A stretch of 64,000 nucleotides of DNA from Acetobacter suratthaniensis. Its GTDB lineage: Bacteria > Pseudomonadota > Alphaproteobacteria > Acetobacterales > Acetobacteraceae. The stretch is taken from the NCBI RefSeq assembly GCF_017377745.1, contig NZ_JAFVMG010000001.1, forward strand, positions 1 through 64,000, written 5' to 3'. Below, piece after piece: positions 43,505 to 59,340 of the stretch; the first letter of the stretch is position 1, and each line of letters begins with the position of its first letter. The position numbers and the translations under genes are program-made. The notes under the pieces are model-generated. The model made no database searches. It saw only the letters and a list, made by a program, of their open reading frames with translations, and had not been told where the DNA came from.

Positions 43505-43527
43505 CAGGCGGCTGGTGGAGCTGAGGG
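43505..43527. repeat. attL: left copy of the 23-bp direct repeat
   Basis: Identical to 59318-59340. It contains the complement of the last bases of tRNA-Ala including CCA. Bases on both sides differ from the right copy, so the identity is exactly 23 bp. The rest of the tRNA is absent here. Confidence 0.9.
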
Positions 43528-43552
43528 CCACTAATCCGGCTTCTCTGGGCGG

Positions 43553-43581
43553 TTCTGTCTGGCGCAAATTCGTGCTATAAT
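43553..43581 (+). promoter_or_regulatory. Candidate integrase promoter
   Basis: A consensus TATAAT at 43576-43581 with TTCTGT 17 bases before it as a weak -35. It lies about 95 bases before the integrase start. Confidence 0.45.
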
Positions 43582-43648
43582 ATCAATGATTTGCAAGATA
43601 GTCCGTCCCCCTGTGTGTCTGCCCGACTTTGCTTGGCGCAGTTTTTAA

Positions 43649-43668
43649 GGGGGGTTTTAAGAGGGGTA
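43649..43668. repeat. Left copy of a 20-bp element-end repeat (putative integrase arm site)
   Basis: GGGGGGTTTTAAGAGGGGTA, identical and in the same orientation to 59251-59270. It lies 122 bases inside attL and ends nine bases before the integrase ATG, where it also supplies the ribosome-binding site GAGGGG. Confidence 0.7.
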
Positions 43669-43676
43669 TCCCGGTT

Positions 43677-44879
43677 ATGAGTCGGGTTTCACCACACCAG
43701 CTTACGGCTCGACAGGTCAGCGCCCTTAAAGACGGGGCGCTGGCGGACGGAGGCGGCTTGTGGCTGGTCGCTCAGGGAGGGGCCAAGTCCTGGTATTTCC
43801 GCTTCACCAGCCCCGTGACCGGCAAGCGGCGGGAAATGGGAATCGGCTCGGTGGCCAACATCACGCTGGCGGATGCCCGCAGGCGTGCGACCGAGGCCCG
43901 CCACCAAATGGCGGATGGCTTAGACCCCATAGACGAACGGCGCAGGCAGAAGGCGCAGGATCGCAAGGAAACCGGCATCACCTTTGCCGAGGTCGCCCAG
44001 CGCTATATCAAGGAGATGACACCCGGCTGGCGGGATCCACGGGCTGCCACCATATGGACAAGCTCTCTCAAGCGACTGGCCTTCCCCATTGTCGGCGCCA
44101 ATCCGGTTGCAGAGGTGGAAACGAAGGACGTGCTGTCCATCCTCCGCCCGATCTGGCAGACCACGACAGAGACGGCCGACCGGTTGCGGGGCCGCATCGA
44201 ACGGATCCTCGATTATGCCCGCACGCATGGCTGGCGCGATGGTGAGAACCCGGCCCGCTGGCGGGGGCATCTGGCCAATATCCTGCCCAAGCCGTCCGCT
44301 GTCACAAAGGTGCGACACCATGCCGCCGTACCCCGGCAGGACATTGCCCGCGTCATGGCCAGGCTGGTCGAATCGGAAGGGATGGCGGCCAAGGCCGTGC
44401 GCTTCACCTGCCTGACGGCCGTGCGCTCTGGCGAGGTCAGACACGCTATCTGGCTGGAAATCGACATGACCGCCCAGATTTGGACTATCCCGGCCGAGCG
44501 GATGAAAACCGGCAAGGAACACCGCGTCCCGCTTTCGGAAGGTGCAATGGCTATTCTGCATGAAGTCCTGCCCCTGCGCGACCGGCGGGCGGGCGATCTC
44601 GTTTTCCCGGGCGCGAAGCGAGGCCGTCCGTTATCAGATGTGGCGTTGTCCAAGGCCCTGCACCTGGCCGCCGGCACAAAAGAAGTGACCGTGCACGGCC
44701 TACGCTCCACATTCCGCGACTGGGCGGCCGAGGAGACTGATTACCCGCGGGAAGTAGCCGAAATGGCTCTGGCCCATGCCATCAGTGACAAAGTGGAAGC
44801 CGCTTATAGGCGAGGCGACCTGTTTGATAAGCGGCGGGAGATGATGGCTGAATGGTTCGTAGTTCAACAATCCACCTGA
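43677..44879 (+). CDS. Tyrosine-type site-specific integrase
   Basis: A 400-residue integrase of the P4/DUF4102 branch. N-terminal arm-binding domain (LTARQVSALKDGALADGGGL, MGIGSVANITLADARRRATE), a central core-binding domain, and a C-terminal catalytic domain with Arg in TAVRSGEVRHA, HGLRSTFRDWA (His-x-x-Arg), and the late nucleophile region ISDKVEAAYRRGDLF with Tyr. It inserts the element into the tRNA-Ala 3' end. ATG at 43677 has GAGGGG at a spacing of ten. The 3' end overlaps the convergent hicB by 16 bases. Confidence 0.95.
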   Translation: MSRVSPHQLTARQVSALKDGALADGGGLWLVAQGGAKSWYFRFTSPVTGKRREMGIGSVANITLADARRRATEARHQMADGLDPIDERRRQKAQDRKETGITFAEVAQRYIKEMTPGWRDPRAATIWTSSLKRLAFPIVGANPVAEVETKDVLSILRPIWQTTTETADRLRGRIERILDYARTHGWRDGENPARWRGHLANILPKPSAVTKVRHHAAVPRQDIARVMARLVESEGMAAKAVRFTCLTAVRSGEVRHAIWLEIDMTAQIWTIPAERMKTGKEHRVPLSEGAMAILHEVLPLRDRRAGDLVFPGAKRGRPLSDVALSKALHLAAGTKEVTVHGLRSTFRDWAAEETDYPREVAEMALAHAISDKVEAAYRRGDLFDKRREMMAEWFVVQQST

Positions 44880-45196
44880 GATAGAGCATCCGCCACCAGC
44901 CGGTTAAGGCTCACTCCACGGGCAGCAGCAATTTCAGCGGCGCGCGCATGAACATCCTCGGGCAGGCGCACGACGAACCGGCCGGAGTAGTGCTTGACCG
45001 GATCCAGCCCCTTTTCGGCGCACATCTCAAGGAACACGCGCAGCGAGGTCTCGCCTTCCTGCTGGAGACCTCCAACACTGTCAGCATAGAAGTCTGCCCC
45101 GCCGTTGAGGCCCAGAAACTCACCCCGGAACATGCCGATTTCCGGGTCAAACTGAATGACAGCCCGATGGCCGCCAATTTCCATCACATTATTCAT
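44864..45196 (-). CDS. hicB: HicB family antitoxin
   Basis: A 110-residue antitoxin. The N-terminal partial RNase H fold (IQFDPEIGMFRGEFLGLNGG, FYADSVGGLQQEGETSL) neutralises HicA, and the C-terminal ribbon-helix-helix (RLPEDVHARAAEIAAARGVS) binds the operator. ATG at 45196 overlaps the hicA stop (ATGA), which fixes the start; an in-frame ATG at 45223 lies inside hicA. It probably stabilises the element. Confidence 0.9.
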   Translation of the reverse strand: MNNVMEIGGHRAVIQFDPEIGMFRGEFLGLNGGADFYADSVGGLQQEGETSLRVFLEMCAEKGLDPVKHYSGRFVVRLPEDVHARAAEIAAARGVSLNRLVADALSQVDC

Positions 45197-45447
45197 GGTG
45201 TCACCCCATTTGCTTCGAGCCATTTTCGTATGGATGCAACGGCCCCTTTGTCTGTATCCGGCTTTGGATGAGGCCGATGGAACACCCGCACCTCACCGAA
45301 CAGGAACATACCAACGCGAGAACCTTCGCGCTCTGAAACCTCACCACCGAGGGACACGAACAGCGCTTCAATATCCGCCCACGGCACATTGCCGGATACG
45401 GGACGTTTGAAGATCAGTTCCAGCGTGCGGCGATGCTTAGCTTTCAT
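45193..45447 (-). CDS. hicA: HicA family toxin
   Basis: An 84-residue double-stranded-RNA-binding-fold toxin. LIFKRPVSGNVPWADIEALF and the ending DKGAVASIRKWLEANG are family-typical. The usual SHHxF catalytic segment is replaced by GSRVGMFLFGEVRVFHRPHP, as in a recognised alphaproteobacterial subgroup, with histidines in HRPHP. HicA cleaves mRNA when unbound. It is encoded first, followed by hicB, with a palindrome upstream. Confidence 0.88.
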   Translation of the reverse strand: MKAKHRRTLELIFKRPVSGNVPWADIEALFVSLGGEVSEREGSRVGMFLFGEVRVFHRPHPKPDTDKGAVASIRKWLEANGVTP

Positions 45448-45454
45448 AGCATGA

Positions 45455-45477
45455 TTGATACTGATTTATAGTATCAA
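45455..45477. promoter_or_regulatory. hicAB operator/promoter palindrome
   Basis: TTGATACT-GATTTAT-AGTATCAA, a perfect 8-bp inverted repeat eight bases upstream of hicA. Its A/T-rich centre could also be the -10 region, giving autorepression by HicB. Confidence 0.6.
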
Positions 45478-45729: not shown

Positions 45730-46170
45730 ATGGAACCCGCGGCATCCGAACAGCCCATTTACCGTATCATCATCCCTGGTCTGCTGAGGGCCAAAGGCCG
45801 CCCACGCTTTGGGAACGGACGCACTTTTACCGATGCCAAAACGGTGCAGGCTGAAAAGCATATCCAGCGCCACGCCATAGAGCAGATTGGCAAGCCATGC
45901 CTGAGCGGGCCGCTTCATGTTTCCCTGACAATCAACATTGCACCACCCCCGTCATGGAGTAGGAAGAAGACAGCAGATGCGTTGGCAGGGCGCATACTCC
46001 CAACCAGCAGGCCAGACATAGACAATCAGATGAAGACCGCAGCGGATGCCTTAAACGGTATCGCGTGGAAAGATGATGCCCAGATTGTGGATGCCAACCT
46101 GTCGCGCCGCTACGGGCCGGAGAGCGTGACCGTGATTGTTGTACGGCGTCTAAATTCATTGTGCGTATAA
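45730..46170 (+). CDS. rusA: RusA family Holliday junction endonuclease
   Basis: A 146-residue protein. N-terminal RAKGRPRFGNGRTFTDAKT, then the metal-binding aspartates in SRPDIDNQMKTAADALNG and WKDDAQIVD, matching the three catalytic Asp residues of RusA. It resolves Holliday junctions in phage replication and recombination and acts as a dimer. The gene stands alone on the plus strand, and a strong hairpin lies 100 bases downstream. Confidence 0.92.
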   Translation: MEPAASEQPIYRIIIPGLLRAKGRPRFGNGRTFTDAKTVQAEKHIQRHAIEQIGKPCLSGPLHVSLTINIAPPPSWSRKKTADALAGRILPTSRPDIDNQMKTAADALNGIAWKDDAQIVDANLSRRYGPESVTVIVVRRLNSLCV

Positions 46171-46270
46171 TTTTCAGCCACCAATTTAAAAGTATACAGC
46201 CAAGAAAAATTACATGCTACTGCGCTCAATATCTCAAGATAATTATAAAAATGAAAGCAGCATAATAATA

Positions 46271-46296: not shown

Positions 46297-46305
46297 TAAA
46301 TTATT

Positions 46306-46540: not shown

Positions 46541-47152
46541 CTACCAGCTAGCCCCTTGCCCAGCAGGAAAAGTAGAGACTTGAGGATTTATCCTCAGGTC
46601 TTTATTTTTTTGTGGAAGAATCCTCCCTTTGCGATGCAAATATGACAGTCTATTGGCTGCAGCTTGATAGCTGACCCCATGTCTTAGCATCACGGTGTCC
46701 GGAGTATCTTCCGCAGAAAAAAATCTAGCAGGCATAAGCAACTCGCTAGCAAATTGATTAGCTTGCGGTTCGCTCTGCCTAAAGATAGGAACACTCTGCT
46801 CTGGTTGAACCCGAGCCAACTGTACATTTGTATGCATGTCCCAATGGCCTAGTTCATGAGCAGCAGTGAAACGGTCTCTAGGTTCACCTTCCCATGCACG
46901 TCGATATACATCTTCTCGAAGATAAATCGCTTTACCTGACTGATCAGTATACCCCTCGGCACTACCCATTTCTTGATTTTCTACAATAATTAAATCAAAA
47001 AAATTAAGCTTATTGTCGAGAACTTTCTCCAAAACCTCCATTATTGGAAAAAAAGGATCATTTTCCAATCCTAAAATTCTGCGCCATTTGAGTGTATTAT
47101 TCTCAATTTTAGACCAGCTTAAAGGGGGAACAATAAAACCATTTCCATTCAT
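46541..47152 (-). CDS. ImmA/IrrE family metallo-endopeptidase
   Basis: A 203-residue protein. The zinc site HELGH in TAAHELGHWDMH is followed by the ligand glutamate in EPQANQFASELLMPARFF. ImmA-type proteases cleave a partner XRE repressor and derepress a mobile element after DNA damage or host signals. Its partner is encoded immediately upstream, five bases away. G+C is lower than in the neighbours, suggesting separate acquisition. Confidence 0.9.
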   Translation of the reverse strand: MNGNGFIVPPLSWSKIENNTLKWRRILGLENDPFFPIMEVLEKVLDNKLNFFDLIIVENQEMGSAEGYTDQSGKAIYLREDVYRRAWEGEPRDRFTAAHELGHWDMHTNVQLARVQPEQSVPIFRQSEPQANQFASELLMPARFFSAEDTPDTVMLRHGVSYQAAANRLSYLHRKGRILPQKNKDLRINPQVSTFPAGQGASW

Positions 47153-47157
47153 TGTTT

Positions 47158-47514
47158 CTACTCACCTTTATCCTTACTGAGAATAGCCAGAATCTCACTT
47201 AATTGTTCTTCAGATAATTCATTCATACGCCTCGCCATCAGGCCTGCTGTATCTCGTCCTAAAATGCTGCATGGCTCAATAGTGAAACTCTTACGTGCTC
47301 TGTCAGCAACTTGTTTTAGTTTCTCTCCGACATCTGCGGCTAAACCGTAAGCCTGAGCAATAATGTCTTCGAATCCATGCGGCGGAGATTTTTTTCCGAC
47401 TTCAACTGCAGAAATAAAAGCAGAGGATTTTCCGATTTTGTCCGCCATATCCATCAACCGTTCATCACGGTCAATGCGGATCTTTCGAAGCTCCTTTCCA
47501 AATTCTGTCACCAT
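47158..47514 (-). CDS. XRE family repressor paired with ImmA
   Basis: A 118-residue protein with an N-terminal HTH (GKELRKIRIDRDERLMDMAD, KIGKSSAFISAVEVGKKSPP) and a C-terminal helical part that may be the ImmA target. It probably represses its own operon through two identical-symmetry operators in the 100 bases upstream. Confidence 0.88.
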   Translation of the reverse strand: MVTEFGKELRKIRIDRDERLMDMADKIGKSSAFISAVEVGKKSPPHGFEDIIAQAYGLAADVGEKLKQVADRARKSFTIEPCSILGRDTAGLMARRMNELSEEQLSEILAILSKDKGE

Positions 47515-47553
47515 TCCTTGGCACCTCCTGTTGGGGTCTAGATTATATAAATC

Positions 47554-47674: not shown

Positions 47675-47914
47675 CTAACATTTCACTTTCCTCAGCCTTA
47701 CCCCAGCCCCGCCACCATTCTCAGCAATGAACTCAACGCCAGCGGCTTCCAGAGCAATGCGGATGGCGGAAAGTGTTCGTGGATAAGGGGCTCTAGCCTC
47801 TCTCTCAAAATCAGCAATAGTTTTTTTCGCTACCTTTGAGGCATCTTCTAACTGACTTTGAGACCAGTTTAATAGCGCGCGTGCTGCTCGGCATTGTGGG
47901 GGAGTAATTTCCAC
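47675..47914 (-). CDS. Second XRE family HTH regulator (cI-like)
   Basis: A 79-residue single-domain HTH protein (ARALLNWSQSQLEDASKVAK, KTIADFEREARAPYPRTLSA) with the short C-terminal GVEFIAENGGGAGVRLRK tail common in phage and island regulators. It is divergent from the long plus-strand operon, so it is the likely repressor of that operon. Confidence 0.88.
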   Translation of the reverse strand: MEITPPQCRAARALLNWSQSQLEDASKVAKKTIADFEREARAPYPRTLSAIRIALEAAGVEFIAENGGGAGVRLRKVKC

Positions 47915-48068: not shown

Positions 48069-48242
48069 ATGGCTAACTATCCCTATAGCACGCTCACGCA
48101 TGCTCACGCGTTCAATATTATAAACTCAAGGCTCCCCGCTCTCATAGCTCCGGCTTTAATCGCTTTAGCCTTGTTAGGGCTGGCAACACCTGATCCAGTT
48201 ATATCAAGCCGGATCGTTCATATTCAGGAGGTGGCACAATGA
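48069..48242 (+). CDS. Small hydrophobic protein, first gene of the coupled operon
   Basis: A 57-residue protein with one hydrophobic helix (LPALIAPALIALALLGLA). TGGAG lies eight bases upstream of the ATG, and the stop overlaps the next start (ATGA). Not recognised; possibly a membrane-inserted regulator or accessory protein. Confidence 0.6.
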   Translation: MANYPYSTLTHAHAFNIINSRLPALIAPALIALALLGLATPDPVISSRIVHIQEVAQ

Positions 48243-48469
48243 CCCCTCTGGAACATGCAGCTTACGCTCTGAACTGGCAGGCTGATCACCAGCGCCGCGT
48301 TGCGGTGATCTGTGATGCACTTACGGACTATCTGGCCAACAAGACCGGTGGTCCTGATGGTAGTGACGCGGAAATGTGCAGTGGGGTCGCCCTGTTCCTG
48401 TCCGCTTATATCCGGCACGGGGCAGATGTGGCCGCAGAAGACGCCAAGCACGCGGAGGCAGGAGCATGA
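48239..48469 (+). CDS. Hypothetical phage-type small protein
   Basis: A 76-residue acidic, alanine-rich helical protein (LEHAAYALNWQADHQRRVAV, DALTDYLANKTGG). No family recognised. AGGAGG precedes the start; both ends join neighbours by 4-nt overlaps. Confidence 0.65.
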   Translation: MTPLEHAAYALNWQADHQRRVAVICDALTDYLANKTGGPDGSDAEMCSGVALFLSAYIRHGADVAAEDAKHAEAGA

Positions 48470-48735
48470 CTGGCCTCTCACCCCTGACTGCTTTTGAACA
48501 GGAAAGCGTTAAGGCCCTCAGAGTCCCTGACGTGGTTTTGAATGATGCTAGGAAGCTATCAGGGCTGGTTGTGGCCGTGGCCGAAAGTGGCGTTGGCGCT
48601 GGCCGCGAGATCACCGAGCCAGAAGCCCTGCTGTGGCTAGCTCATCGCCTGCAAGACAAGCTGGACCTGTTGGCTGCGCTATCTGGTGACGGAAACGCTC
48701 CCGGCTGGATGCAACCCGAGGAGGTGCAGCCATGA
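48466..48735 (+). CDS. Hypothetical phage-type protein
   Basis: An 89-residue acidic, helical protein without recognisable domain. Start fixed by the ATGA overlap with the preceding gene (48466); GGAGGCAGGAG precedes it. Overlaps the next gene by four bases. Confidence 0.65.
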   Translation: MTGLSPLTAFEQESVKALRVPDVVLNDARKLSGLVVAVAESGVGAGREITEPEALLWLAHRLQDKLDLLAALSGDGNAPGWMQPEEVQP

Positions 48736-49001
48736 CCCCAGATGAATCGTGGGCCGTCTTTGGTGTGTCTGACCCGATCGCACGCGGGAAGGCGTGGGCC
48801 GAGTCCGTGTGGGGCGTTGATGGCCTGCCCATGCCCTTAGCTGTTCGGCTCGTGGTACAGGAGGCGGACGCTCTGGGCAAAACCATGAAAGCGCGGGGCG
48901 GCGCTCCGCTGGTCGAGCCGTATTGCAGCGCCTTCACCATTTCAGCCAAAGCCCGGCTGTTTGACCTTTACCTGTCCCAGCACCACGGAGGCCACGCATG
49001 A
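48732..49001 (+). CDS. Hypothetical phage-type protein
   Basis: An 89-residue protein (WAVFGVSDPIARGKAWAESV, VVQEADALGKTMKARG). No family recognised. Four-base overlaps with both neighbours and GAGGAGGTG before the start. Confidence 0.65.
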   Translation: MTPDESWAVFGVSDPIARGKAWAESVWGVDGLPMPLAVRLVVQEADALGKTMKARGGAPLVEPYCSAFTISAKARLFDLYLSQHHGGHA

Positions 49002-49258
49002 CCAGCCCCATTCAGGTGGCCACCATTGCCGCCCTCAGTTCCGATCGCTGCTGTTGGAAGGAGCAGACCCTTGATGCGGGTCTGCCTCATAGCCGCCGTT
49101 TCAACAGGGCTTACCGCCGGGTGGCTTCCGTACGGGCGCGCACCCTGAAAGACCTGCAATGCAAGGCCCGGCTGATCCTGCTGACAATGGAGGAACCGGA
49201 CAGCATGGAGGCTAGCCTTGCCCGCGATGTGCTGGCGTTCACGGGAGGCCAGCCATGA
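48998..49258 (+). CDS. Hypothetical phage-type protein
   Basis: An 86-residue basic, helical protein (RRFNRAYRRVASVRARTLKD) that could bind nucleic acid by composition only. Overlaps both neighbours by four bases. Confidence 0.65.
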   Translation: MTSPIQVATIAALSSDRCCWKEQTLDAGLPHSRRFNRAYRRVASVRARTLKDLQCKARLILLTMEEPDSMEASLARDVLAFTGGQP

Positions 49259-49491
49259 CCCGTAAACCACGGCCGGAAATCCCGGTTGCCACGCCAGATC
49301 GGATCGACCTTATCCAGACTGCAAGCTTGGAATTGAGCGCCATTTCCACTTGTCTTTCAGCTATGGGCCGTGAGCTTATTCACGCGCCGGGAGCCGGAAG
49401 ACGCCTGCCGGATGCGGCTGGAAGCGCAATGGAGTGGCTTGCCGCTGAGATAGAGCACCGGTGCGCCCTGATTGATGAGGTGCTGTCATGA
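49255..49491 (+). CDS. Hypothetical phage-type protein
   Basis: A 78-residue protein with no recognised domain. Start fixed by ATGA overlap with the preceding gene, and its own stop overlaps the start of the AT-rich gene by four bases. Confidence 0.6.
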   Translation: MTRKPRPEIPVATPDRIDLIQTASLELSAISTCLSAMGRELIHAPGAGRRLPDAAGSAMEWLAAEIEHRCALIDEVLS

Positions 49492-50141: not shown

Positions 50142-50240
50142 AAATGGCAGAGGCTTATTTTGCGTAAGGACGCAGTTGCCTATGCTCCCTATTTTGTCCT
50201 TGCAACCATATAACTCCACATGGGCACAAGGATATTTTAT

Positions 50241-50489
50241 ATGAATACTGAGCAACCATCGAACAGTTTTCGTGAAGCATCTGACTTGCCAATTCTGGTC
50301 TCTATGGGTTCTGCCCCGCAGACCTTTGGGATGTCTCGCTCTTATATTTATGAATTAGCTGCTCAAGGAAAAATCAGTCTAAAAAAAATGGGCCGCTACA
50401 CCATGGTCGTAACAGAAAGCATGCTGGCTTACATCAATGCCTTACCGAACATGACACCAGTAACCCGCAAAAAGAAACCGTCAGCCTGA
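50241..50489 (+). CDS. AlpA/excisionase-like HTH protein
   Basis: An 82-residue protein. APQTFGMSRSYIYELAAQGK matches the MerR-type winged HTH of AlpA/Xis-like proteins that bind element DNA, and KKMGRYTMVVTESMLAYINA the following wing. It may act in excision or in transcription of integrase. AAGG lies nine bases before the ATG at 50241. A CCGTCAG/CTGACGG hairpin overlaps its stop at 50478-50503. Confidence 0.75.
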   Translation: MNTEQPSNSFREASDLPILVSMGSAPQTFGMSRSYIYELAAQGKISLKKMGRYTMVVTESMLAYINALPNMTPVTRKKKPSA

Positions 50490-50593: not shown

Positions 50594-51463
50594 ATGAACA
50601 CGCAAAAGCGTGAACGCTCTCGGCTTGCCTCTATTCTGCCAGATCCAACAGTCACGACAGGCAAATGCGTATTGCAGGATATCACCTCTGATGGCGTTAT
50701 CGATTGGGAGCATGTTTGCCACCTATGGGTTTTCCCTGTGGGCAACGGCAATGGCGTGGCTTATGCCCCCTGCGTTGTATTTTTGGATAACTCATGGGCC
50801 ATGATCGGGCCTATTGGCACGCTGGAGGCAGCACGTCAGCTTTGCTTCCGGTGGAGCGCCTTGCATGACCGGGGCGTATGCGACCAGACACGCCCGGCAG
50901 TTCCTATGCCAGTTGTACGCACCGGTCGTCTGGTAGACATACCGCCATCCGAGTTGCCCAATACCCTGCCCGGAGACCCGTGGACCTTCAACGAGCACCT
51001 GAACCGCTTCCAGCTTGATCTGCTCCAGCTTGGTATTGGCATAGCCAATGAGGCCGAGGGGATTACGCTTGATGAACGTATTGCTCAGGTTGATGCAAAA
51101 TTGCAGGAGATCGGCAGCTTCTTTCGCGCCAGCGATGTTATCCAACCCCATCTGGCCAAGGCCTATATTGCCAAAGCGCGCGAAGCCGCAGTGTTCTGGG
51201 CAACCGAGGCACAGGCCGTAGAGGATGCCGAAGTTGATACCCCAGAGGACACGGCCAGGAACTTTGTGGATGACATCCGCAAGGGTGGCATCACCTTTGC
51301 CGAGGCTTACGACCATCTGAACCAGTACATTGGCTTTGTGTATGGCAACATGACCAACGAGGACGGCTCCCCCTTTGCTGAGCGGGCTGCTTACGCCAAG
51401 CGGGCTTATGATGCTGGTTATGCGCGCCTTCAGTATTTCTTCAAGCAGGCGGTCCCCCAATGA
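50594..51463 (+). CDS. Hypothetical protein of the replication operon
   Basis: A 289-residue protein, not recognised. The N-terminal half (GVIDWEHVCHLWVFPVGNGN) is a mixed alpha/beta region, the C-terminal third is helical and alanine-rich (AHLAK-type repeats, AKAREAAVFWATEAQAVEDA). Its stop overlaps the start of the prim-pol gene by four bases, so it is co-expressed with replication genes. Confidence 0.65.
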   Translation: MNTQKRERSRLASILPDPTVTTGKCVLQDITSDGVIDWEHVCHLWVFPVGNGNGVAYAPCVVFLDNSWAMIGPIGTLEAARQLCFRWSALHDRGVCDQTRPAVPMPVVRTGRLVDIPPSELPNTLPGDPWTFNEHLNRFQLDLLQLGIGIANEAEGITLDERIAQVDAKLQEIGSFFRASDVIQPHLAKAYIAKAREAAVFWATEAQAVEDAEVDTPEDTARNFVDDIRKGGITFAEAYDHLNQYIGFVYGNMTNEDGSPFAERAAYAKRAYDAGYARLQYFFKQAVPQ

Positions 51464-52269
51464 GCGCGGCCCTCGATCAGTCGGATCGGCCGGTATCAGG
51501 GGATCCGGTAGCAGCCTACGCGCAGAAACTGGCCCGGCATGGTCTTAAGGTCTTTCCCTGCCAGCAAGACAAGCGGCCGACCTGCAAATGGGGTGAACTG
51601 GCTACTAACCGTCCCCAAAGCGTTCCCATGTTGTGGCGCACTTATCCCGGCCCGCTCATTGGGGTGATGACGGGGGCGGTTTCAGGGTTTGATGTGCTTG
51701 ATCTGGACTGGGGGAAAGGGGGCGATGACTTCCATCAGGAGCATTGCCCCCGGCTGACTGGCACCCGTACGCATCGGACCCGTTCGGGCGGGCTCCACCT
51801 GCTCTTCAAACATCGGGAGGGCATGCGGAACAGCGCCAGCCGGATCGCGCATGGCGTGGATGTGCGGGCCGATGGTGGATACGTTATCTGGTGGCCAGCC
51901 GCTGGGCTGGAGATCGTTGACCGTAGCCCAGCCCAGCAGTGGCCTGCCTGGCTGGTTGAACGGGCTCAGCCGCCTATTCCGCCGAAAGCCAGTTTAGAGG
52001 CTACCAGTCTGGATCTGCAGGATGCGGAGAAGAAGGTTCGTAATGCCGTGCGCTCCGCTGTGCGGTCTGTAGCTTCTGCCCCTGAAGGACGCCGGAACGA
52101 TACCCTCAATGCCGAAACGTACGCGATAGCCCGTTTTATTGCGGGTGGGCATCTGACCGTTGCGCAGGTTGTGGATGCTGTGGCCGCGGGTGGCCTGCAG
52201 GCGGGTCTGACGCACCCGGAAATTGAAAAGACCATCGCGTCCGCTCTGCGGGCAAGGGTGGGGGTATGA
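51460..52269 (+). CDS. Bifunctional primase/polymerase (Prim-Pol) domain protein
   Basis: A 269-residue protein. KVFPCQQDKRPTCKWGELAT, the metal-binding VLDLDWG motif near residue 75, and HRTRSGGLHLLFKH define the archaeo-eukaryotic primase fold of mobile elements. It can synthesise primers and extend them. The C-terminal helical part (EGRRNDTLNAETYAIARFIA) is the usual linker to a helicase, which here is encoded by the next overlapping gene. Together they would form a P4-like primase-helicase module. Confidence 0.87.
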   Translation: MSAALDQSDRPVSGDPVAAYAQKLARHGLKVFPCQQDKRPTCKWGELATNRPQSVPMLWRTYPGPLIGVMTGAVSGFDVLDLDWGKGGDDFHQEHCPRLTGTRTHRTRSGGLHLLFKHREGMRNSASRIAHGVDVRADGGYVIWWPAAGLEIVDRSPAQQWPAWLVERAQPPIPPKASLEATSLDLQDAEKKVRNAVRSAVRSVASAPEGRRNDTLNAETYAIARFIAGGHLTVAQVVDAVAAGGLQAGLTHPEIEKTIASALRARVGV

Positions 52270-53659
52270 CAGAAACGACCAGTATTGATGATGTGGTGCG
52301 TCAGGGGCTGAGGCAGGCCCAGAACGTGCCGGGTAGCAATAGCTACGCGCTGCTGACCGAGCATGGAATGGCAACGGCTTTTACCAACCGCTACAAGGAT
52401 GAACTCCGTTTCGATCATCAGGTTGGGCGCTGGTTTCTGTGGGCAGGAACGCATTGGGATGAGGACAGCATGCACCGTGCCTTCAGCTATGCCCGTGAGC
52501 TGGTGGCTGAGGCCAATCGGAACAGTGAGTTCAAGGAGCAAGCCATTACAGGCAAAGCGTCCTTTTGCAGCGGCGTGGAAAGGTTCGCGCGTGCCGACCC
52601 CGCACATGCTGTGGTGCCTGATGACTGGGACAGGGATCCATATCTACTTGCAACCCCGGAGGGACTGTTGACCTGAAAACGGGTATCCTCAGGCCTGCTG
52701 CCCCTGATGATATGATCACCCGCGTAGCGGCGGTTGCGCCAGCCGAAATACCTTGCCCGCGTTGGCTACAGTTCCTGCAGGAGGCTACCAACAGAGATGA
52801 GGAGCTGATTACCTTTCTCAAGCGCTGGTGTGGATACTGCCTGACAGGTGATACGCGTGAGCACGCTCTGGTGTTTGGTTGTGGCCCGGGTGGAAATGGA
52901 AAGAGCGTTTTCCTCAATGTGTTGGCAAAGATCATGGGAGATTACGCCACAGTCGCGGCCATGGATACGTTCACCGCCAGCCATGGGGACAGGCACTCAA
53001 CCGACCTTGCCATGTTGCGTGGCGCCCGTCTGGTCAGCGCTTCAGAAACGGAAGAGGGCAGGGCTTGGGCCGAAAGCCGGATCAAGCAGATGACAGGTGG
53101 TGACCCCATTACCGCGCGTTTCATGCGGCAGGACAACTTTACCTTTTTACCCCAGTTCAAGCTCACTATCGTGGGTAACCACAAGCCAGTGCTCAAGAAC
53201 GTGGATGATGCGGCCCGCCGGCGCTTCAATATCGTTCCGTTCATTCACAAGCCCAATAGCCCCGACAAGGATCTGGAATTCAAGCTTCAGGAAGAATGGC
53301 CGGGTATCCTGCACTGGATGATACAGGGGTGTCTGGAATGGCAGCGTGAAGGTATGCCCCGCCCCGCAGTCGTGAGGGAGGCAACGGCTGAGTATTTTGA
53401 GGCGCAGGATACGTTTGGCCAGTGGCTGGCTGAAAGATGCATTCTGGATGTTGGTCTGGAGACGAAGCCCAGCATGCTGCTCAAGGACTTTCAGGAATGG
53501 TGCCGTAACAACGGGGAACCTGAGAGCGATAACAAGCGCATGCGCGGGATGTTGGAGCGGACAAACGGTATTCGCTATGTGAAGACACGAGGTATTCGAG
53601 CTGTGCGAGGTGTTGGCTTAAAACCGTCCCTTTCTGAGCAAAACCGATGGATGGATTAA
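52266..53659 (+). pseudogene. P4/D5-type primase-helicase, frameshifted
   Basis: The first frame (52266-52676, 136 residues) ends DRDPYLLATPEG and then stops. The continuation in another frame reads TVDLKTGILRPAAPDDMITR from 52664 onward and includes the D5 helicase Walker A (GPGGNGKS) and a P4-type AAA+ core to 53659. Expected protein TPEG-TVDLKTG is restored if one G is added to the GGG run at 52661-52663. So the gene is interrupted by a single-base loss (or a homopolymer sequencing error). Length when repaired, about 464 residues, suits the P4 family. An internal ATG at 52712 could start a helicase-only product but has no ribosome-binding site. Confidence 0.82.
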
Positions 53660-54040: not shown

Positions 54041-54622
54041 ATGAGGCCAGTCATGAAGATCGGATACGCTCGCGTTTCAACCGTAGATCAGGACGCCGGA
54101 CTGGAAGCGCAGATACGTGACCTGACTGCGGCAGGGTGCGAGAAAATTTTTGCCGAAAAGGTCAGTGGCACAGACAGTCAGCGCCCAGCCCTAATGGAAG
54201 CTCTGGAGTATGTGCGCCCGGGCGATGTGCTGGTTGTGACCAAGCCCGACCGTCTGGCCCGCTCTACTGCTGATCTTTTGGGGTATGTGCAGACCGTGCA
54301 GGCTAAGAAATGCGGGCTGATCGTCCTGTCCATGAATGGCACGACCCTGGACACGACAAGCCCCACCTCCAAGCTGATGCTGACCATGTTGGCGGCCGTG
54401 GCAGAGTTCGAGCGTGACCTGATGCTGGAGCGCCAGAGAGAGGGGATTGCCAAAGCCAAGGCGGAAGGTCGCCCCATGGGCCGCCCCCGCACGGTCCTGT
54501 CGAAGACCCAGACCATCCGCAAAATGAGACAAAAAGGCCTGTCAGCGGCTGCCATTGCCAAGCAGTTAGGCATTGCCAGATCGGGCGTTTATCGGGCCCT
54601 TGGCGGTCAAGGTGAGAGTTGA
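54041..54622 (+). CDS. Serine recombinase (resolvase/invertase family)
   Basis: A 193-residue recombinase. The nucleophile serine is in GYARVSTVDQD at the N-terminus; DRLARSTADLL and AVAEFERDLMLERQREGIAK follow, and the C-terminal HTH is IRKMRQKGLSAAAIAKQLGI. Small size and the Hin-type HTH indicate a resolvase or invertase. Start is uncertain: the ATG at 54041 has GGAG ten bases upstream, and the ATG at 54053 (MKIGYARVS) is an alternative. A repeat array lies immediately upstream. Confidence 0.92.
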   Translation: MRPVMKIGYARVSTVDQDAGLEAQIRDLTAAGCEKIFAEKVSGTDSQRPALMEALEYVRPGDVLVVTKPDRLARSTADLLGYVQTVQAKKCGLIVLSMNGTTLDTTSPTSKLMLTMLAAVAEFERDLMLERQREGIAKAKAEGRPMGRPRTVLSKTQTIRKMRQKGLSAAAIAKQLGIARSGVYRALGGQGES

Positions 54623-54792: not shown

Positions 54793-55146
54793 ATGAAAAA
54801 GATAGGTCCCCATTCGCGGCCGGATAGTCTCAGGAAACTCGACGGAAGAAGCAAGGAAGCGCGGCTCCTCAAAAGCGTGCGCTCTGCATTGGTTGAGCAT
54901 CTGGGGGGTGATCCTTCCATTACCCAGTTTGTCCTGATCGATAGGGCAGCTTGGCTGATCCTCCATATGGGGCTGATGGACAACCACATGCTGCAAGGTG
55001 GTGCTCCGGCGGAACGGGATTCCCGGCAGTATCTGGCCTGGGCTAACACGTTAACCCGTACCATGCGCTCGCTCGGGCTCGACAAGTCCCCGACCGTTAC
55101 CCGTGGTCTCGATGCCCTTCTGGCGGAGCGGAGGGCGCAGGCATGA
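54793..55146 (+). CDS. Terminase small subunit-like protein
   Basis: A 117-residue protein. DGRSKEARLLKSVRSALVEH, LIDRAAWLILHMGLMD and RQYLAWANTLTRTMRSLGLD match proteins that precede large terminase genes in alphaproteobacterial phages. Role as DNA-binding small subunit is inferred from position (4-nt overlap with terL). AAGGGGG precedes the ATG. Confidence 0.65.
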   Translation: MKKIGPHSRPDSLRKLDGRSKEARLLKSVRSALVEHLGGDPSITQFVLIDRAAWLILHMGLMDNHMLQGGAPAERDSRQYLAWANTLTRTMRSLGLDKSPTVTRGLDALLAERRAQA

Positions 55147-56594
55147 GCGTGACCGTTCTACAAGCCATGCACGATCCAGCCCTGTTCGGGGCCGAGTTCG
55201 ACAAACCCACATGGACCGCATGGGAAGCCTTCCTGGCAGCATTGCTTGGCGAGGGTATGACAGATGAGCAGAAGCTTATCTGCCAGACGCATACGGGCCG
55301 GACCGATCTGCCAGCCCAGGTATTCCGCCGGGCAGCATTGGTCTGTGGACGGCGCGCGGGCAAAAGCCGCATTTTGGCGCTGCTGGGCACCTCCCTTGCA
55401 ACCCTGAAGGATTACCGGCCCTACCTGTCAGCAGGTGAGGTTGCCACGGTGGGCATTATCGCTGCCGACCGCAAACAGGCCCGCACCATCTTCCGTTACG
55501 TGCGCGGCCTTCTTGCTCTGGTGCCGGAAATGGAGGCAGAGGTCACGCGCGAGACGGACGAGATCATAGAGATGGCGGGCCGCCGCGTGGTGATAGAGAT
55601 CGGCACAGCCAGTTTCCGTGCAACCCGTGGTTACACTTATGCTGCTGTGCTGTGTGACGAGATCGCCTTTTGGCGTGACGATAGCAGCGCGAACCCGGAC
55701 GAGGAAATCCTGCGGGCCCTCCGCCCTGGCCTTGCGACCATACCAGGCTCCATGTTGCTGCTTGCCTCCAGCCCGTATGCACGCCGGGGCGTGCTGTGGA
55801 AAACCTTCAAGCGCTATTACGGTCAGGAAGGTGCGAGTACCCTCGTATGGAAAGCAGCCACCCGGGATATGAACCCGGAATTTGACGTGCAGGAAGAGCG
55901 GGACGCCTACGAGGAAGACCCCGCCTCTGCCGCCGCTGAATACGGGGCCGAGTTCCGTAGCGACATTGCCTCCTTCGTAGCCCCCGAGGTGGTGGAGGCC
56001 TGCACCGTGCAGGGCCGGCACGAACTGCCGCGTAACAGCCGGGTGCGGTATGCGGCCTTCGTAGATCCCTCTGGCGGTTCGTCTGACAGCATGACCTTGG
56101 CCATTGCTCATTACGAGGGGGATAGCGCCATCCTTGATCTGGTGCGCGAGCGTAAAGCTCCGTTCAGCCCAGAAGCTACCGTGATCGAATTTTCTGCGGT
56201 TCTGAAAACCTATGGCCTGGTCAGTGTCACAGGCGACCGTTACGGCGGGGAATGGCCCCGTGAGCAGTTCCGCAAGCATGGCATTGCCTACAACCTGTCC
56301 GATAAACCCCGCTCCGACCTGTACCGCGATCTGTTGCCGTTGCTGAACTCCGGCAAAGCCGAATTGCTCGATCTGCCAGTTCTGGCCCGCCAGCTCTGCG
56401 GTCTGGAGCGGCGTACCGGCCGTGGGGGACGGGACAGCATCGATCATGCACCGGGTGGGCATGATGACGTCGCCAATGCTGTCGCAGGCGCGCTGCTTAT
56501 GCAGCCAAGGCGGCGGATGCCAAAATTCACACCTGAAGTCGTTCAAAAAATCGCTAATCAGAGCATGAGAGGATATCAAACATGGGCCGTGTAG
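55143..56594 (+). CDS. Phage terminase large subunit
   Basis: A 483-residue packaging ATPase/nuclease. Walker A-like CGRRAGKS near residue 70, Walker B LCDEIAFW near 177, coupling SSPYARRG, and a C-terminal RNase H-like nuclease with acidic residues in AFVDPSGGSSDSM, GDRYGGEW and HAPGGHDDVANA. All motifs look intact, so it could package DNA into capsids if a procapsid were supplied. No portal gene follows. It overlaps terS by four bases and the next gene by 13. Confidence 0.93.
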   Translation: MSVTVLQAMHDPALFGAEFDKPTWTAWEAFLAALLGEGMTDEQKLICQTHTGRTDLPAQVFRRAALVCGRRAGKSRILALLGTSLATLKDYRPYLSAGEVATVGIIAADRKQARTIFRYVRGLLALVPEMEAEVTRETDEIIEMAGRRVVIEIGTASFRATRGYTYAAVLCDEIAFWRDDSSANPDEEILRALRPGLATIPGSMLLLASSPYARRGVLWKTFKRYYGQEGASTLVWKAATRDMNPEFDVQEERDAYEEDPASAAAEYGAEFRSDIASFVAPEVVEACTVQGRHELPRNSRVRYAAFVDPSGGSSDSMTLAIAHYEGDSAILDLVRERKAPFSPEATVIEFSAVLKTYGLVSVTGDRYGGEWPREQFRKHGIAYNLSDKPRSDLYRDLLPLLNSGKAELLDLPVLARQLCGLERRTGRGGRDSIDHAPGGHDDVANAVAGALLMQPRRRMPKFTPEVVQKIANQSMRGYQTWAV

Positions 56595-56905
56595 AAGTGG
56601 CTATTGGCCGCGCCATAGATCGGGAACGCAAAAGGCGTCAGGAGGTGGAGACAGCCCGGCGAGTGGTCGCTCCCTTGGTGGGTGATGTATTGGGCATGGA
56701 CAGTGCTGCCGAAATCTACAGTCATACGCTCAGACAACACGGTGTTGTACCGGGTGGGGCCGGCACGGCCGCCCTGCAGACCATGGTTCGCATGCTGCTG
56801 AACGGTAATGGCAGTGGAGTAGTCAGTGCGCCCTCTTTTGCGATTGCGACGGATGAGGCCAGCATGGCCACGGACTATGGCGTGCCCACGCCTCGCAAGC
56901 TGTAA
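56582..56905 (+). CDS. Hypothetical protein after terminase
   Basis: A 107-residue protein with a basic helical N-terminus (IGRAIDRERKRRQEVETARR). Not recognised. It overlaps the end of terL by 13 bases. Confidence 0.65.
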   Translation: MGRVEVAIGRAIDRERKRRQEVETARRVVAPLVGDVLGMDSAAEIYSHTLRQHGVVPGGAGTAALQTMVRMLLNGNGSGVVSAPSFAIATDEASMATDYGVPTPRKL

Positions 56906-56918: not shown

Positions 56919-57653
56919 ATGGACACATCCCCACATGATTTGCGTCAGTCCCTTGCCGATGCCATTGGGAAACGTGATGCGCTCCGGCGCGAGTTTGGCG
57001 GCATTAAGGACGCACAGGACCGGGTCCAGAACACCATTTTTGAGCTGAGGACCAAACTCCAGGCAGCGGAGGCCTCTTTTGAACAGGCCCGCCAGACGAG
57101 TGTGACCTATCTGGTGGACGAAGCCCTTGGGCAGACTACGGAGGCGCGGCCCTCGCTGCGGCAGATGCGCTCTGATCTGGCGGTTGTAGAAGATGAGCTT
57201 GCCGCCGCCAGAGATGCGAAGGCAGTGCTGACCGATCGGCAAAAAGCGGTTGAAAGCAAGCTGTCCTGGGCGAAAAGTGAGGTTCGGTCGGCTTTGTCTG
57301 TAGTGGTGCAGGGTAGCCTAGAGGTTACGAAGCTTCTGGAGGAAGCGAAGGCCCTGGAAGCACAGCTCATCGAACGTATGGCCCAGATCGCTTATCTGGT
57401 TGGTGCGGGCGTGCTGTTCCCGGGGGTTTATGATCCCTTTACGTTGCACCCATTTGGCAATCACCTGATACCGTGCCCTACTCCGGGGCAGTCTTGGGCG
57501 TTCCTGCTGGAAAAGGAGGGGCGTCGTGAAAATCCCGAATGGCATGCAGCGTTGACAGCACTGGATGTCGATGCACAGGCTCCTCTTCCCAGTGGCGTCA
57601 CGGCCTCTGCTTCGGGCAAGGGCGGCCTACGCAAAATGCTGGGAGGGCGGTGA
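56919..57653 (+). CDS. Coiled-coil hypothetical protein
   Basis: A 244-residue protein. Residues 1-155 are heptad-rich (FELRTKLQAAEASFEQARQT, DELAAARDAKAVLTDRQKAV), giving a long coiled coil. The C-terminal part is not recognised. It could be a scaffold- or tail-related phage protein. TAAGGAGG is nine bases before the ATG at 56919, which fixes the start. Confidence 0.7.
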   Translation: MDTSPHDLRQSLADAIGKRDALRREFGGIKDAQDRVQNTIFELRTKLQAAEASFEQARQTSVTYLVDEALGQTTEARPSLRQMRSDLAVVEDELAAARDAKAVLTDRQKAVESKLSWAKSEVRSALSVVVQGSLEVTKLLEEAKALEAQLIERMAQIAYLVGAGVLFPGVYDPFTLHPFGNHLIPCPTPGQSWAFLLEKEGRRENPEWHAALTALDVDAQAPLPSGVTASASGKGGLRKMLGGR

Positions 57654-57654: not shown

Positions 57655-58185
57655 ATGAAGCAGTCTCAGGCCGATCGGCTGACCGGTTTTCTGGAAGAGC
57701 GCCTGCCACCCGAAGCTTACACTGATTTTTACGACATGCTGGAAGATTTGCTGGAAGCCTCCGATGGTGCCGGGGCTGATGACACCGAAGTGGCTATGCG
57801 GACGGTGGATCTGTTGAATTTTCTGGATGAACGGCTACCGGAAGACGAGGTGAGCCGAGTCCGTAAGATTATTTTCGGGACCGACGATCAGGGAAAAATT
57901 GTGGCTCAGGATGCAGCATTGCGCGTGAAATGTGCAATGCGCGCGGAGCAGTATGCGAAAGCACGAGTTATGCGGGCGACCGGGGCGGATGCAATGGCTT
58001 GCGACAGTGCTGCGGATGCTTACCGTCTGGGGCTAACTGCTCTTGGGCAGGATGCCACACACGTCACGGATGACGCCGCCCGATCCATTTTCGAGGGTTT
58101 TGTAGGCCAGCGCAAGCAACGGGTGGTGGCATTGTCCGATCTGGAGGTGCGTCTTGGGACCAAAGCACCCCGGAACTTCGGGTAG
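57655..58185 (+). CDS. Hypothetical protein, possibly phage virion-associated
   Basis: A 176-residue acidic protein. Two short similar segments (LTGFLEERLPPEAYTDFYDM and LLNFLDERLPEDEVSRVRKI) form an internal repeat about 50 residues apart. Function unknown. The start at 57655 lies within GGAGGGCGGTGAG just after the preceding stop. Confidence 0.65.
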   Translation: MKQSQADRLTGFLEERLPPEAYTDFYDMLEDLLEASDGAGADDTEVAMRTVDLLNFLDERLPEDEVSRVRKIIFGTDDQGKIVAQDAALRVKCAMRAEQYAKARVMRATGADAMACDSAADAYRLGLTALGQDATHVTDDAARSIFEGFVGQRKQRVVALSDLEVRLGTKAPRNFG

Positions 58186-58192
58186 TGGCGGC

Positions 58193-58378
58193 ATGACGGA
58201 CACCACCGTCGACACCGTCACAATCCCCGGGTTGCTGCGTGGTAAGGGGTGGACGGATCACCAGAAAACATCTCGCAAGCCTAGGCCGCGTTTCCAGAAA
58301 CGGTACCCTCGTAAACCAACCCTGGCCCGCATTGCCCGCTTCGAAGCCATGCGTGCGAGGCTGATGGGAAAGGATTAG
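58193..58378 (+). CDS. Small basic hypothetical protein
   Basis: A 61-residue very basic protein (KTSRKPRPRFQKRYPRKPTL). Not recognised. The N-terminal VTIPGLLRGKG resembles the first strand of RusA proteins, but no catalytic region follows. The preceding gene ends seven bases upstream. Confidence 0.5.
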   Translation: MTDTTVDTVTIPGLLRGKGWTDHQKTSRKPRPRFQKRYPRKPTLARIARFEAMRARLMGKD

Positions 58379-58382
58379 CAGA

Positions 58383-58454
58383 ATGGCCACAGTAATTGAT
58401 GCCCTTATGGGGCTTAGGGGCGGTATGGAGTGGAGCTGGTGCGACAGATCATAG
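58383..58454 (+). pseudogene. Truncated tape-measure-like N-terminal stub
   Basis: A 23-codon frame starting MATVIDALMGLRGG. MATVIDAL is the usual opening of tail tape-measure proteins (MATVIDALVVTLGLD in many). The frame then breaks into unrelated sequence, consistent with a deletion that removed the body of the gene. Short length makes the identification tentative. Confidence 0.35.
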
Positions 58455-58506
58455 CTAAACGAGTTGGAAGAGCAGGCAGAGTCCCACACATTCAGGAACT
58501 AAAATC

Positions 58507-59244
58507 ATGGTCATGCAAACAATCGCCCAGCCGGTGACAGCCAATGTCATTCCCGGCGCGGGCGTTCCCAAACTCTGGTCAACTGTCATTTCCGATGCGG
58601 AGGCCGTGGCCTCGGTCGAGCTTGATACCCTTCTGCAAAGCACGCTTATCAAGCAGGCGGACAAGCAGTGGGGATTGTTCGACAGCAGCAACAAGCCGGT
58701 TCTGACCTCGGGTCGGGTACGGGCCATTGATGCGCACGCAGCCGGGCAGATTACGGATGCACCGCAGGAAAACGGCGCCTTCATGTCCTACAACAAGGTG
58801 AAAATTCCGGGGCAGATCATGCTTGAAATGCTGTGTGATGGTTCCACCATGAGCTACGGGAATTATAGCGCCATCAGCAACCTGCTTTCAGCAACGGTGA
58901 TAACCGGGCTTTCATCTGAGGGGCAGGCGCGGAAGGAGTTCATGACCAAACTGCGTGCGCTGGTTACTGACCTGAACCTGTATACCGTCACCACCCCGGA
59001 AACGACCTACGCCAACATGAACGTGGTTGGATACGGCATGCGCCGCGCATCAGACCGGGGCATTACGCTTCTGTGGGCGCAGATCATGCTTCAGGAGGTG
59101 AGGTTGACGGCGCGGGTCAGCCGGGCATCAGACGAAAGCACAAAAACCCCCGCAGGGGCTACCCAGAAGAATAGCGGGAATGTGCAGGCTCAGTCCGCCA
59201 CAGGCAAGCAGGCAGAGGCGTTCCATAGGAATGCTATCGCATAA
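58507..59244 (+). CDS. Phage tail/baseplate-type protein
   Basis: A 245-residue protein. The central region (MSYNKVKIPGQIMLEMLCDG, LYTVTTPETTYANMNVVGYG, GITLLWAQIMLQEVRLTARV) has the alternating pattern of phage tail-associated proteins that follow the tape-measure gene, where a YNKV start and TPE-x-x-Y-x-N motif recur. It is the last gene of the element and probably a relic of a tail operon. AGGA precedes the ATG by nine bases. Confidence 0.65.
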   Translation: MVMQTIAQPVTANVIPGAGVPKLWSTVISDAEAVASVELDTLLQSTLIKQADKQWGLFDSSNKPVLTSGRVRAIDAHAAGQITDAPQENGAFMSYNKVKIPGQIMLEMLCDGSTMSYGNYSAISNLLSATVITGLSSEGQARKEFMTKLRALVTDLNLYTVTTPETTYANMNVVGYGMRRASDRGITLLWAQIMLQEVRLTARVSRASDESTKTPAGATQKNSGNVQAQSATGKQAEAFHRNAIA

Positions 59245-59250
59245 CTTTGA

Positions 59251-59270
59251 GGGGGGTTTTAAGAGGGGTA
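59251..59270. repeat. Right copy of the 20-bp element-end repeat
   Basis: Identical to 43649-43668 and in the same orientation, 47 bases inside attR. Five more bases upstream match with one difference. Confidence 0.7.
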
Positions 59271-59317
59271 GCTTGTAATCATAGTTTAAAAAACATAATG
59301 ATTACGGTGCGTTAGAT

Positions 59318-59340
59318 CAGGCGGCTGGTGGAGCTGAGGG
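59318..59340. repeat. attR: right copy of the 23-bp direct repeat
   Basis: Identical to 43505-43527. It covers the 3' terminal 15 bases of tRNA-Ala including CCA plus eight bases beyond. Confidence 0.9.

Follow-up and report, generated by a model that had tools for sequence, protein, structure and literature searches.

Integration site and gene content

The window, that is, the whole stretch of DNA analysed here (64,000 nucleotides of contig NZ_JAFVMG010000001.1 of Acetobacter suratthaniensis), contains an integrated element of 15.8 kb. The element carries a tyrosine integrase, replication genes and its own gene for the large terminase subunit (terL), followed by five open reading frames (ORFs), p1 to p5, of which p1, p3 and p5 resemble parts of phage head proteases or tails (Table 1). 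With a probability of about 0.9, it belongs to a widespread family of phage satellites that integrate into tRNA genes, encode their own TerL and usually carry neither capsid nor portal genes. Related loci are given L numbers below and genomes G numbers, G000 being the genome of the window.

The element is flanked by exact 23-bp repeats and lies in the 3' end of a tRNA-Ala(CGC) gene. L188 (G227) and L189 (G225), from two other members of the genus, are empty sites. Both show the order csaA, tRNA-Ala(CGC), yggT with the insert absent; the 23-bp core is identical in L189 and has one difference in L188. A further 18 csaA loci had no tRNA-Ala in the fetched stretch and were uninformative. The attachment (att) repeats and target gene given in a preliminary description of the window are thus borne out by a repeat search, by ARAGORN and by the empty sites, and the comparison of attB occupancy that it proposed gives two unoccupied sites in the genus. 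Within the two ends lies a 25-bp direct repeat, whose copies are possible arm sites for the integrase or Xis.

ORFs were taken from a simple longest-ORF script, which is weak for GC-rich DNA; in the integrase ORF, for example, there is an ATG 16 codons inside the called frame. Of 26 ORFs in the element, 23 were scanned with Pfam and/or PHROGs, and the other three (78-89 aa) with PADLOC only.

Table 1. Features of the integrated element and its integration site
Feature	Position	Strand	Evidence or remark
att core repeat, left (distal) end	43505..43527		exact 23-bp copy of 59318-59340; uninterrupted core in empty site L189
Tyrosine integrase	43629..44879	+	phrog_1 E 6e-50; 67-87% identity over compared parts in kin
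25-bp direct repeat inside left end	43644..43668		96% match to 59246-59270
HicB-like antitoxin	44864..45223	-	PF05534 E 1.6e-16
HicA-like toxin	45193..45447	-	PF07927 E 3e-10
RusA-like Holliday junction resolvase	45730..46170	+	PF05866 E 5e-25
ImmA/IrrE-like metallopeptidase	46541..47152	-	PF06114 E 6e-14
Xre-like regulator adjoining ImmA	47158..47514	-	HTH_31 E 2e-4, below Pfam cut-off
Second Xre-like regulator	47675..47914	-	PF01381 E 2.5e-6; homologues in kin
Run of small ORFs	48239..49491	+	part conserved in Acetobacter kin
AlpA-like small helix-turn-helix protein, candidate excisionase/regulator	50220..50489	+	HTH_17 E 0.0065, below cut-off; position conserved
Conserved protein 5' of primase	50594..51463	+	no Pfam match; 40-92% identity in kin
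Bifunctional primase-polymerase (Prim-Pol)	51460..52269	+	PF09250 E 7e-21
D5 N-terminal helicase piece, ended by frameshift	52266..52676	+	PF08706 E 4e-14
Helicase piece, other frame	52712..53659	+	DUF5906 E 1e-13; phrog_6088 E 3e-94
Serine resolvase/invertase	54041..54622	+	PF00239 E 4e-45; cluster in 23/81 loci
TerS-position protein (ORF opens 54757)	54793..55146	+	homologous ORF directly 5' of terL in 75/81 loci
Terminase large subunit TerL	55143..56594	+	phrog_2 E 1e-26; PF03237 just at cut-off
p1, lone scaffold-like C-terminal domain of head maturation protease	56582..56905	+	phrog_2229 positions 330-412 of 428, E 2e-14
p2, long helical protein without family name, found in kin	56919..57653	+	alignment; AlphaFold2
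p3, second protein with protease C-terminal domain, ends APRNFG	57655..58185	+	phrog_2229 E 3.6e-5
p4, short ORF like start of RusA gene	58193..58378	+	likeness judged by eye; RusA-like gene at same place in L054
p5, Dit-like/tail-tube-initiator-like tail protein, 245 aa	58507..59244	+	PF21821 E 3e-6
25-bp direct repeat inside right end	59246..59270		partner of 43644-43668
att core repeat, right (tRNA) end	59318..59340		exact copy of left core
tRNA-Ala(CGC), integration site	59326..59401	-	ARAGORN

A family of related elements

A survey of 200 genomes from the bacterial family gave TerL relatives in 13 (own genome included; one is a fragment with stops). They are also present in 8 of the 49 genomes of the genus (own included) and at 253 loci in a collection of genome contigs. 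From the 253 loci the best 80, with identity of at least 49%, were fetched, and most counts given here refer to these plus the window (81 loci); the flanks extend for at most 10 kb, so gene-presence counts are lower bounds. By record title the relatives are mostly Alphaproteobacteria (Acetobacter, Komagataeibacter, Gluconobacter, Rhizobium, Bradyrhizobium, Methylobacterium), with some Gammaproteobacteria and metagenome-assembled genomes labelled Acidobacteria, Nitrospira and others. An ORF at the terS position is present at 75 loci, an integrase of one broad cluster at 56, and the resolvase at 23. The order int-rusA-primase-res-terS-terL is common to the Acetobacter kin, and much of it is found in Gluconobacter and Brytella. 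The survey of other Acetobacteraceae suggested in the preliminary description yields relatives that keep the gene order.

At 28 of the 81 loci, an exact repeat of 17-58 bp with one copy at a tRNA gene and the other beyond terL bounds an element; these elements measure 9,603-18,048 bp (median 13.3 kb). The cluster integrase lies inside 27 of these 28, the exception being L132. As a control, an exact repeat of at least 15 bp upstream of terL was seen in 4 of 280 random segments, segments overlapping tRNAs included. The tRNA targets fall into 12 amino-acid classes (Ala, Lys, Glu, Arg, Cys, Ser, His, Leu, Gln, Met, Asn and Trp). The window element has TerL of this lineage, the integrase, att repeats at a tRNA gene and a size of no more than about 18 kb, the features by which the family is delimited.

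The space between terL and the next tRNA gene is short in close kin of the window, at 1.6-2.9 kb in L054, L055, L057, L058 and L063. It is 2,292 bp in L054 (TerL identity 95%), 2,860 bp in L058 (89%), and 1,666 and 1,632 bp in L055 and L057 (both 85%). The tRNA end likewise lies only 1.3-2.4 kb past terL in L105, L127 and L131. The preliminary description would have been contradicted by near-identical full prophages showing a deletion junction. Among the loci examined, neither such prophages nor a deletion junction against a full prophage with the same flanks was seen; the close kin are equally short and share this layout.

Direct terminal repeats occur in 3 of 27 full-length viral contigs tested, giving circles of 9,338 bp (L037, 60-bp repeat), 9,705 bp (L038, 114-bp repeat) and 8,117 bp (L247, 114-bp repeat). 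L037 is largely the same in sequence as L038, and each carries an integrase, terL and a tape measure; a replication-initiator match was obtained in L038 and a tail-completion/neck match in L037. The sequence at the far (tRNA) end of the chromosomal relative L087 lies directly upstream of int in both circles, which fits an excised form. No integrase was recognised in L247.

By record name, two terL genes of this lineage occur in one genome in five cases (L112/L132, L084/L105, L076/L090, L095/L110 and L003/L014), which suggests repeated acquisition. Fragments of terL are present in two genomes of the family (L012/L013), at a contig edge in G076 and with two stops in G113.

Conservation of the terminase

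Alignment of 17 TerL sequences gives invariant columns, which we take to include the Walker (ATPase) and nuclease motifs. Ratios of nonsynonymous to synonymous substitution (dN/dS) for terL against the close kin are 0.063 (L054), 0.041 (L058), 0.051 (L055) and 0.044 (L057). The ratio is 0.13-0.19 for more distant pairs, whose dS exceeds 1, and synonymous sites are saturated against L056. The gene is free of internal stops in 77 of 81 matches. It is under strong purifying selection, and a terminase-only relic was rejected on the dN/dS values. Together with the PHROG match and the invariant motif columns, they agree with the preliminary description, in which the large terminase appeared intact. 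The TerS-position ORF gave no family match in Pfam or PHROGs, and its name rests on position and conservation.

Among 50,697 phage records, 9 match TerL at E 1e-5, with 23-33% identity. Relatives are present on 94 viral contigs, some of them 60-116 kb, and 17 viral rows are partly interleaved in the tree; the idea that this TerL lineage is exclusive to satellites was dropped on these grounds.

Head genes

No portal or capsid match was obtained among the 23 scanned ORFs of the element, which accordingly shows no head-tail operon of the kind expected in an intact prophage. Profiles for portal and capsid of the type found in Acetobacter phage phiAO1 matched neither any of the 81 loci nor the three circles. 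In five control phage stretches the portal profile matched all five and the capsid profile one (L280); the remaining four stretches are short and centred on the portal. The claim of the preliminary description that portal, protease and capsid genes are missing holds on these scans, p1 and p3 carrying only the C-terminal domain of a protease. Its tyrosine integrase is likewise confirmed, by a PHROG match.

A Pfam check of the 27 att-bounded relatives covered 124 of their 211 ORFs, namely those of at least 220 aa; the kin L054-L064 lie outside this set. A Phage_capsid protein was found in two, L072 (11748-13494, also with an S78-type protease) and L131 (11515-12645), and a DUF2213 protein in L124. 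Portal was not among the matches listed, which comprise all 25 families for 53 of the ORFs and 25 of 36 families for the other 71, where a weak portal match may lie below the listed ones. The circle L247 also encodes a capsid protein (2151-3338, phrog_10 E 3e-37). A capsid match is thus missing from 25 of 27 att-bounded relatives, a few members have one, and no portal was seen in any. Given these three capsid genes, the notion of a strictly headless family was dropped.

Scaffold-like proteins

The first gene after terL encodes p1 (107 aa), which matches the head maturation protease family phrog_2229 at its C-terminal end only, and p3 matches the same end. Phage proteases bearing this end are 376-418 aa long (Aeromonas 2_D05, Xanthomonas PhiXhv-28). 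A protease of this kind is encoded by a phiAO1-like gene cluster elsewhere in the same genome (contig C8, below). Over 106 aa, p1 is 40.6% identical to the end of this protease; both contain PLVGDVLGMDSA, and the last residues are PRKL in p1 and PRKF in the protease. p3 is 29% identical to the same end (blastp). The comparison of p1, p3 and p5 with the cluster involved six sequences, and cluster genes were searched on one contig.

A domain profile was built from six p1 proteins, four p3 proteins and the own-genome protease, and matches these by construction. It also matches short proteins in L028, L030 (weakly) and L082, the p3 proteins of L060 and L063, and the protease C-termini of other Acetobacter prophages and of phiAO1. 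In L055, L056, L057, L059 and L061 the gene after terL instead encodes a DUF2213-type protease of 250-290 aa. These satellite proteases are 52-67% identical in the protease part to helper-type proteases (402-436 aa) and 112-186 aa shorter; most of the scaffold segment is missing and the end is kept. They end in RIQVKG or RIKVL(G), pattern RI[QK]V[KL], compared with RITVKA in the helper type. From these similarities, p1 and p3 appear to imitate the scaffold-like end of a helper head protease.

Both proteins are under purifying selection, with dN/dS of 0.088 (L054) and 0.095 (L058) for p3, and 0.216 and 0.172 against the same two loci for p1; p2 gives 0.195 (L054). The predicted structure of p1 consists of three helices and a low-confidence tail (mean pLDDT 70.8), and AlphaFold2 places helices at residues 5-69, 80-131 and 134-162 of p2 (mean pLDDT 79.5).

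The C-terminal ends of satellite and resident phage share the type APRK[LF]/TPRK[LF] in G000, G209 and G220, and the type RIxV in G214 (RITVKA) and G229 (RIGVRG). The protease of G215 was unreadable, and G217 and G232 have no portal of the phiAO1 type.

Tail-related proteins

The last gene of the element encodes p5, similar to proteins annotated as 'tail tube initiator'. Its best match is in phiAO1 (38.8%), and it is 46% identical to its homologue in the C8 cluster. Both p5 and the baseplate hub of L058 match Aeromonas, Xanthomonas and Klebsiella phage groups that p1 also matches. The preliminary description spoke of tail relics without complete tail genes. The window does have no tape measure or hub, but what it has is one 245-aa Dit-like protein.

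Relatives carry other tail parts in this region. L061 encodes p5 (66%) and a baseplate hub, L058 a hub, and L056 and L064 (= L015) a tape measure. Nine long downstream ORFs of att-bounded relatives were tested, and seven are tape measures (L070, L072, L073, L077, L078, L086 and L103) from three sets of PHROG groups (973; 991; 19914/20862). L082 (as L021) has another tape-measure type with a hub of phrog_196. In L043 a tail-assembly chaperone precedes the tape measure, and a protein of phrog_817, a family also matched by p5, follows it. A role rather than one gene lineage seems to be kept, which favours function over leftovers for the tail parts.

A candidate helper in the same genome

Contig C8 of G000 carries, at about 25.6-43.9 kb (L135/L136), a phiAO1-like myovirus-type cluster with terL, portal, protease, capsid, sheath, tube, a p5 homologue, hub and baseplate J. 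A PF05065 capsid was not found in the genome, and the capsid of the cluster is called DUF2184-type from its likeness to phiAO1. Helper-type portals occur in 28 of the 49 genomes of the genus. The most likely helper of the satellite is a phiAO1-like myovirus-type cluster such as the one in the same genome.

From 19.9 to 54.2 kb, C8 follows the gene order of G227 over most of its length, the host flanks among it, with 81-85% nucleotide identity and a few gaps. The cluster genes have dS of 0.43-0.94, compared with 0.57 for one neighbouring host gene, and dN/dS of 0.03-0.20. No integrase was noticed in the cluster with the satellite integrases as the only queries. For phiAO1, of the same type, a study of particles induced by mitomycin reports that an integrase gene is lacking and that the prophage is incomplete (PMC8566455). 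The cluster looks vertically inherited. The collinearity, the host-like dS, the purifying selection, the lack of a noticed integrase and the phiAO1 report together make it possible that the helper is domesticated. That the satellite parasitises such a domesticated, possibly gene-transfer-agent-like particle maker is doubtful. If it did, its own terminase, imitated scaffold end and tail initiator would turn the cell's DNA-exporting particles into private carriers.

Proposed mode of propagation

We consider it fairly likely that satellites of this family package DNA with their own terminase and guide the assembly of helper particles. The element would be excised by its integrase to form a circle and replicated by its primase-helicase. 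Its terminase would package the DNA into procapsids made of helper shell and portal proteins. By imitating the helper scaffold, p1 and p3 (or the shortened protease-scaffold of relatives) would redirect the capsid, probably to a smaller shell, and the tail-starting and tail-measuring parts (p5; hub and tape measure in relatives) would redirect tail assembly.

Packaging and induction of the satellite, and with them the change of capsid size and the redirection of tails, are inferred from sequence. Several observations weigh against this account. The helper-type portal is present in 6 of 8 satellite genomes and in 22 of 41 others, which is not significant (p 0.24), and a statistical link between the satellite and a phiAO1-type helper was dropped. 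The C-terminal ends of satellite and resident phage agree in type in all 5 genomes with both readable, but this match is low-powered (1 in 10 by label permutation, 3 vs 2) and the genomes are related, so that it serves as a lead only. Other ends are found in satellites of Gluconobacter (NRKA), Brytella (RRKA) and A. sicerae (RLKA), and none of these was seen in a helper. The phage matches of p5 and of the hub are mostly Acinetobacter phages (80/113 and 79/134), none of which is matched by p1, and the long ORFs of L080 and L091, two of the nine tested, gave no tape-measure match. Large viral contigs also carry TerL relatives, and with the capsid genes of L072, L131 and L247 the family is not uniformly headless.

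The alternative that best withstands the evidence, although unlikely, is a generic packaging parasite whose terminase fills helper heads of normal, full size with concatemers. Its scaffold-like and tail genes would then be carried over and would control neither size nor tails. Helper heads of full size have been reported to contain PICMIs and AH14b (PMC10803314, PMC4936722), and the genes after terL differ among members of the family. However, purifying selection acts on p1 and p3 (dN/dS 0.09-0.22), and both keep the helper-like C-terminal peptide.

It is rather improbable that the element instead blocks its helper with a decoy TerS/TerL and dominant-negative pieces of scaffold, hub and tape measure, and has its DNA packaged by the helper terminase. 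Tai tail-assembly blockers do occur in satellites (PMC11364771), and p1, p3 and p5 are partial or single pieces that might poison assembly. However, TerL is well conserved with its catalytic-looking positions invariant, and the tape measure of L043 is accompanied by a tail-assembly chaperone, which fits a working protein.

Least probable is decay of a temperate phage that lost its head and most tail genes and left terL and relics behind. In the window copy the helicase gene is frameshifted, a RusA remnant is present and the one tail protein is accompanied by neither tape measure nor hub; this copy may itself be decaying, a further point against an active satellite at this site. Nevertheless, a similar gene order recurs in several species and genera, in different tRNA genes and at 60-95% TerL identity; strong purifying selection acts on terL; circular relatives occur; and no such full prophage was noticed in the 81 loci, of which 27 were scanned with Pfam and all for one kind of portal and capsid. 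A one-off deleted prophage was rejected on the family evidence, and a gene-transfer-agent cluster, as the identity of the element, on the integrase, the att sites and the lack of head genes. The preliminary description had left satellite and deleted prophage as alternatives. The satellite is favoured by a conserved, independently integrating family in which head genes were mostly not detected and which spans many genera and, by record titles including those of metagenome-assembled genomes, several phyla.

Comparison with known satellites

The window element resembles cf-PICIs (capsid-forming phage-inducible chromosomal islands) in being a small integrated satellite with its own terminase that would obtain other virion parts from a helper. 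cf-PICIs differ in encoding capsid, protease, portal and connectors and in taking only tails (PMC10690885). The window element has TerL (TerS by position only) together with scaffold-like and tail-starting parts, and neither capsid nor portal was found in it; a capsid gene is carried by two att-bounded relatives. The Streptomyces satellites MulchRoom and MiniFlayer also have their own large and small terminase, but they carry capsid and portal and no primase (PMC10690885), the reverse of the element described here. SaPIs supply TerS at most (PMC10690885).

The scaffold-like end has a parallel in SaPI1 CpmB, a short satellite protein carrying the capsid-binding C-terminal peptide of the helper scaffold; CpmB and the 80alpha scaffold have a RIIK capsid-binding end in common (PMC5644958). 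The peptide in the present family is APRKL or RIxVKG, known from sequence only, and no homology to CpmB is claimed. In P2 gpO the N-terminal part is a protease and residues 195-284, at the C-terminal end, form an internal scaffold (PMC7552001); p1 corresponds to an end of this kind in another phage group. Pseudomonas AH14b is a 16.8-kb element with an integrase, an AlpA-like gene and a primase, packaged in helper heads, in which its authors found no terminase gene (PMC4936722). PICMIs adjoin fis and are without packaging genes (PMC10803314), in contrast to the window element with its terL and tRNA-Ala(CGC) site. Of the integrase, AlpA-like regulator and primase that mark Gram-negative PICIs, the integrase and Prim-Pol are clear in the window and the AlpA-like match is below cut-off; the element's own TerL is unlike a PICI.

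P4-like satellites are marked by genes of the Sid, Psu and Ogr-Delta type. P4 shares an integrase, a primase and an AlpA-like gene with the window element, but it uses Sid and the helper terminase, whereas the window element has its own TerL. No Pfam or PHROG match of the Sid, Psu or Ogr-Delta type was obtained among the scanned window proteins.

The satellites compared, in the accessible parts of the papers describing them, either borrow the helper motor (P4, PICIs and apparently PICMIs) or bring a motor and a whole capsid (cf-PICIs, Streptomyces satellites). A self-supplied terS-terL pair without head genes, called a distinct arrangement in the preliminary description, is indeed distinct among these, VEIME not being included. 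A literature search, largely without subscription papers, turned up no satellite with terL and a tape measure but no capsid. If the proposed mode of propagation is correct, the family fills this gap by carrying a motor and assembly guides but no shell, and a terminase can serve a foreign portal. Satellites would then copy scaffolds, tape measures and tail initiators, making tail length and host range redirectable as well. With the paired peptide ends (APRKL; RIxVKG), helper specificity can be tested directly.

Phage genomes are commonly recognised by TerL as a marker gene. This lineage often sits in capsid-less elements, so that such elements could be miscounted as phages.

Replication genes and other features of the window copy

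The preliminary description mentioned replication genes, and RusA, Prim-Pol and the D5_N/DUF5906 helicase are present. However, a frameshift divides the D5 helicase gene, which in all five of L054-L058 is a single ORF of 463-466 aa. The replication module of the window copy is therefore not intact, and this copy may be replication-defective. p4 is probably a remnant of a RusA gene. PADLOC matches among the scanned window proteins were limited to ImmA-like domains, with weak matches for the ATPase of one relative. The G+C content falls to 0.44 at 46001-48000, around the ImmA and Xre genes, a value below that of most of the window.

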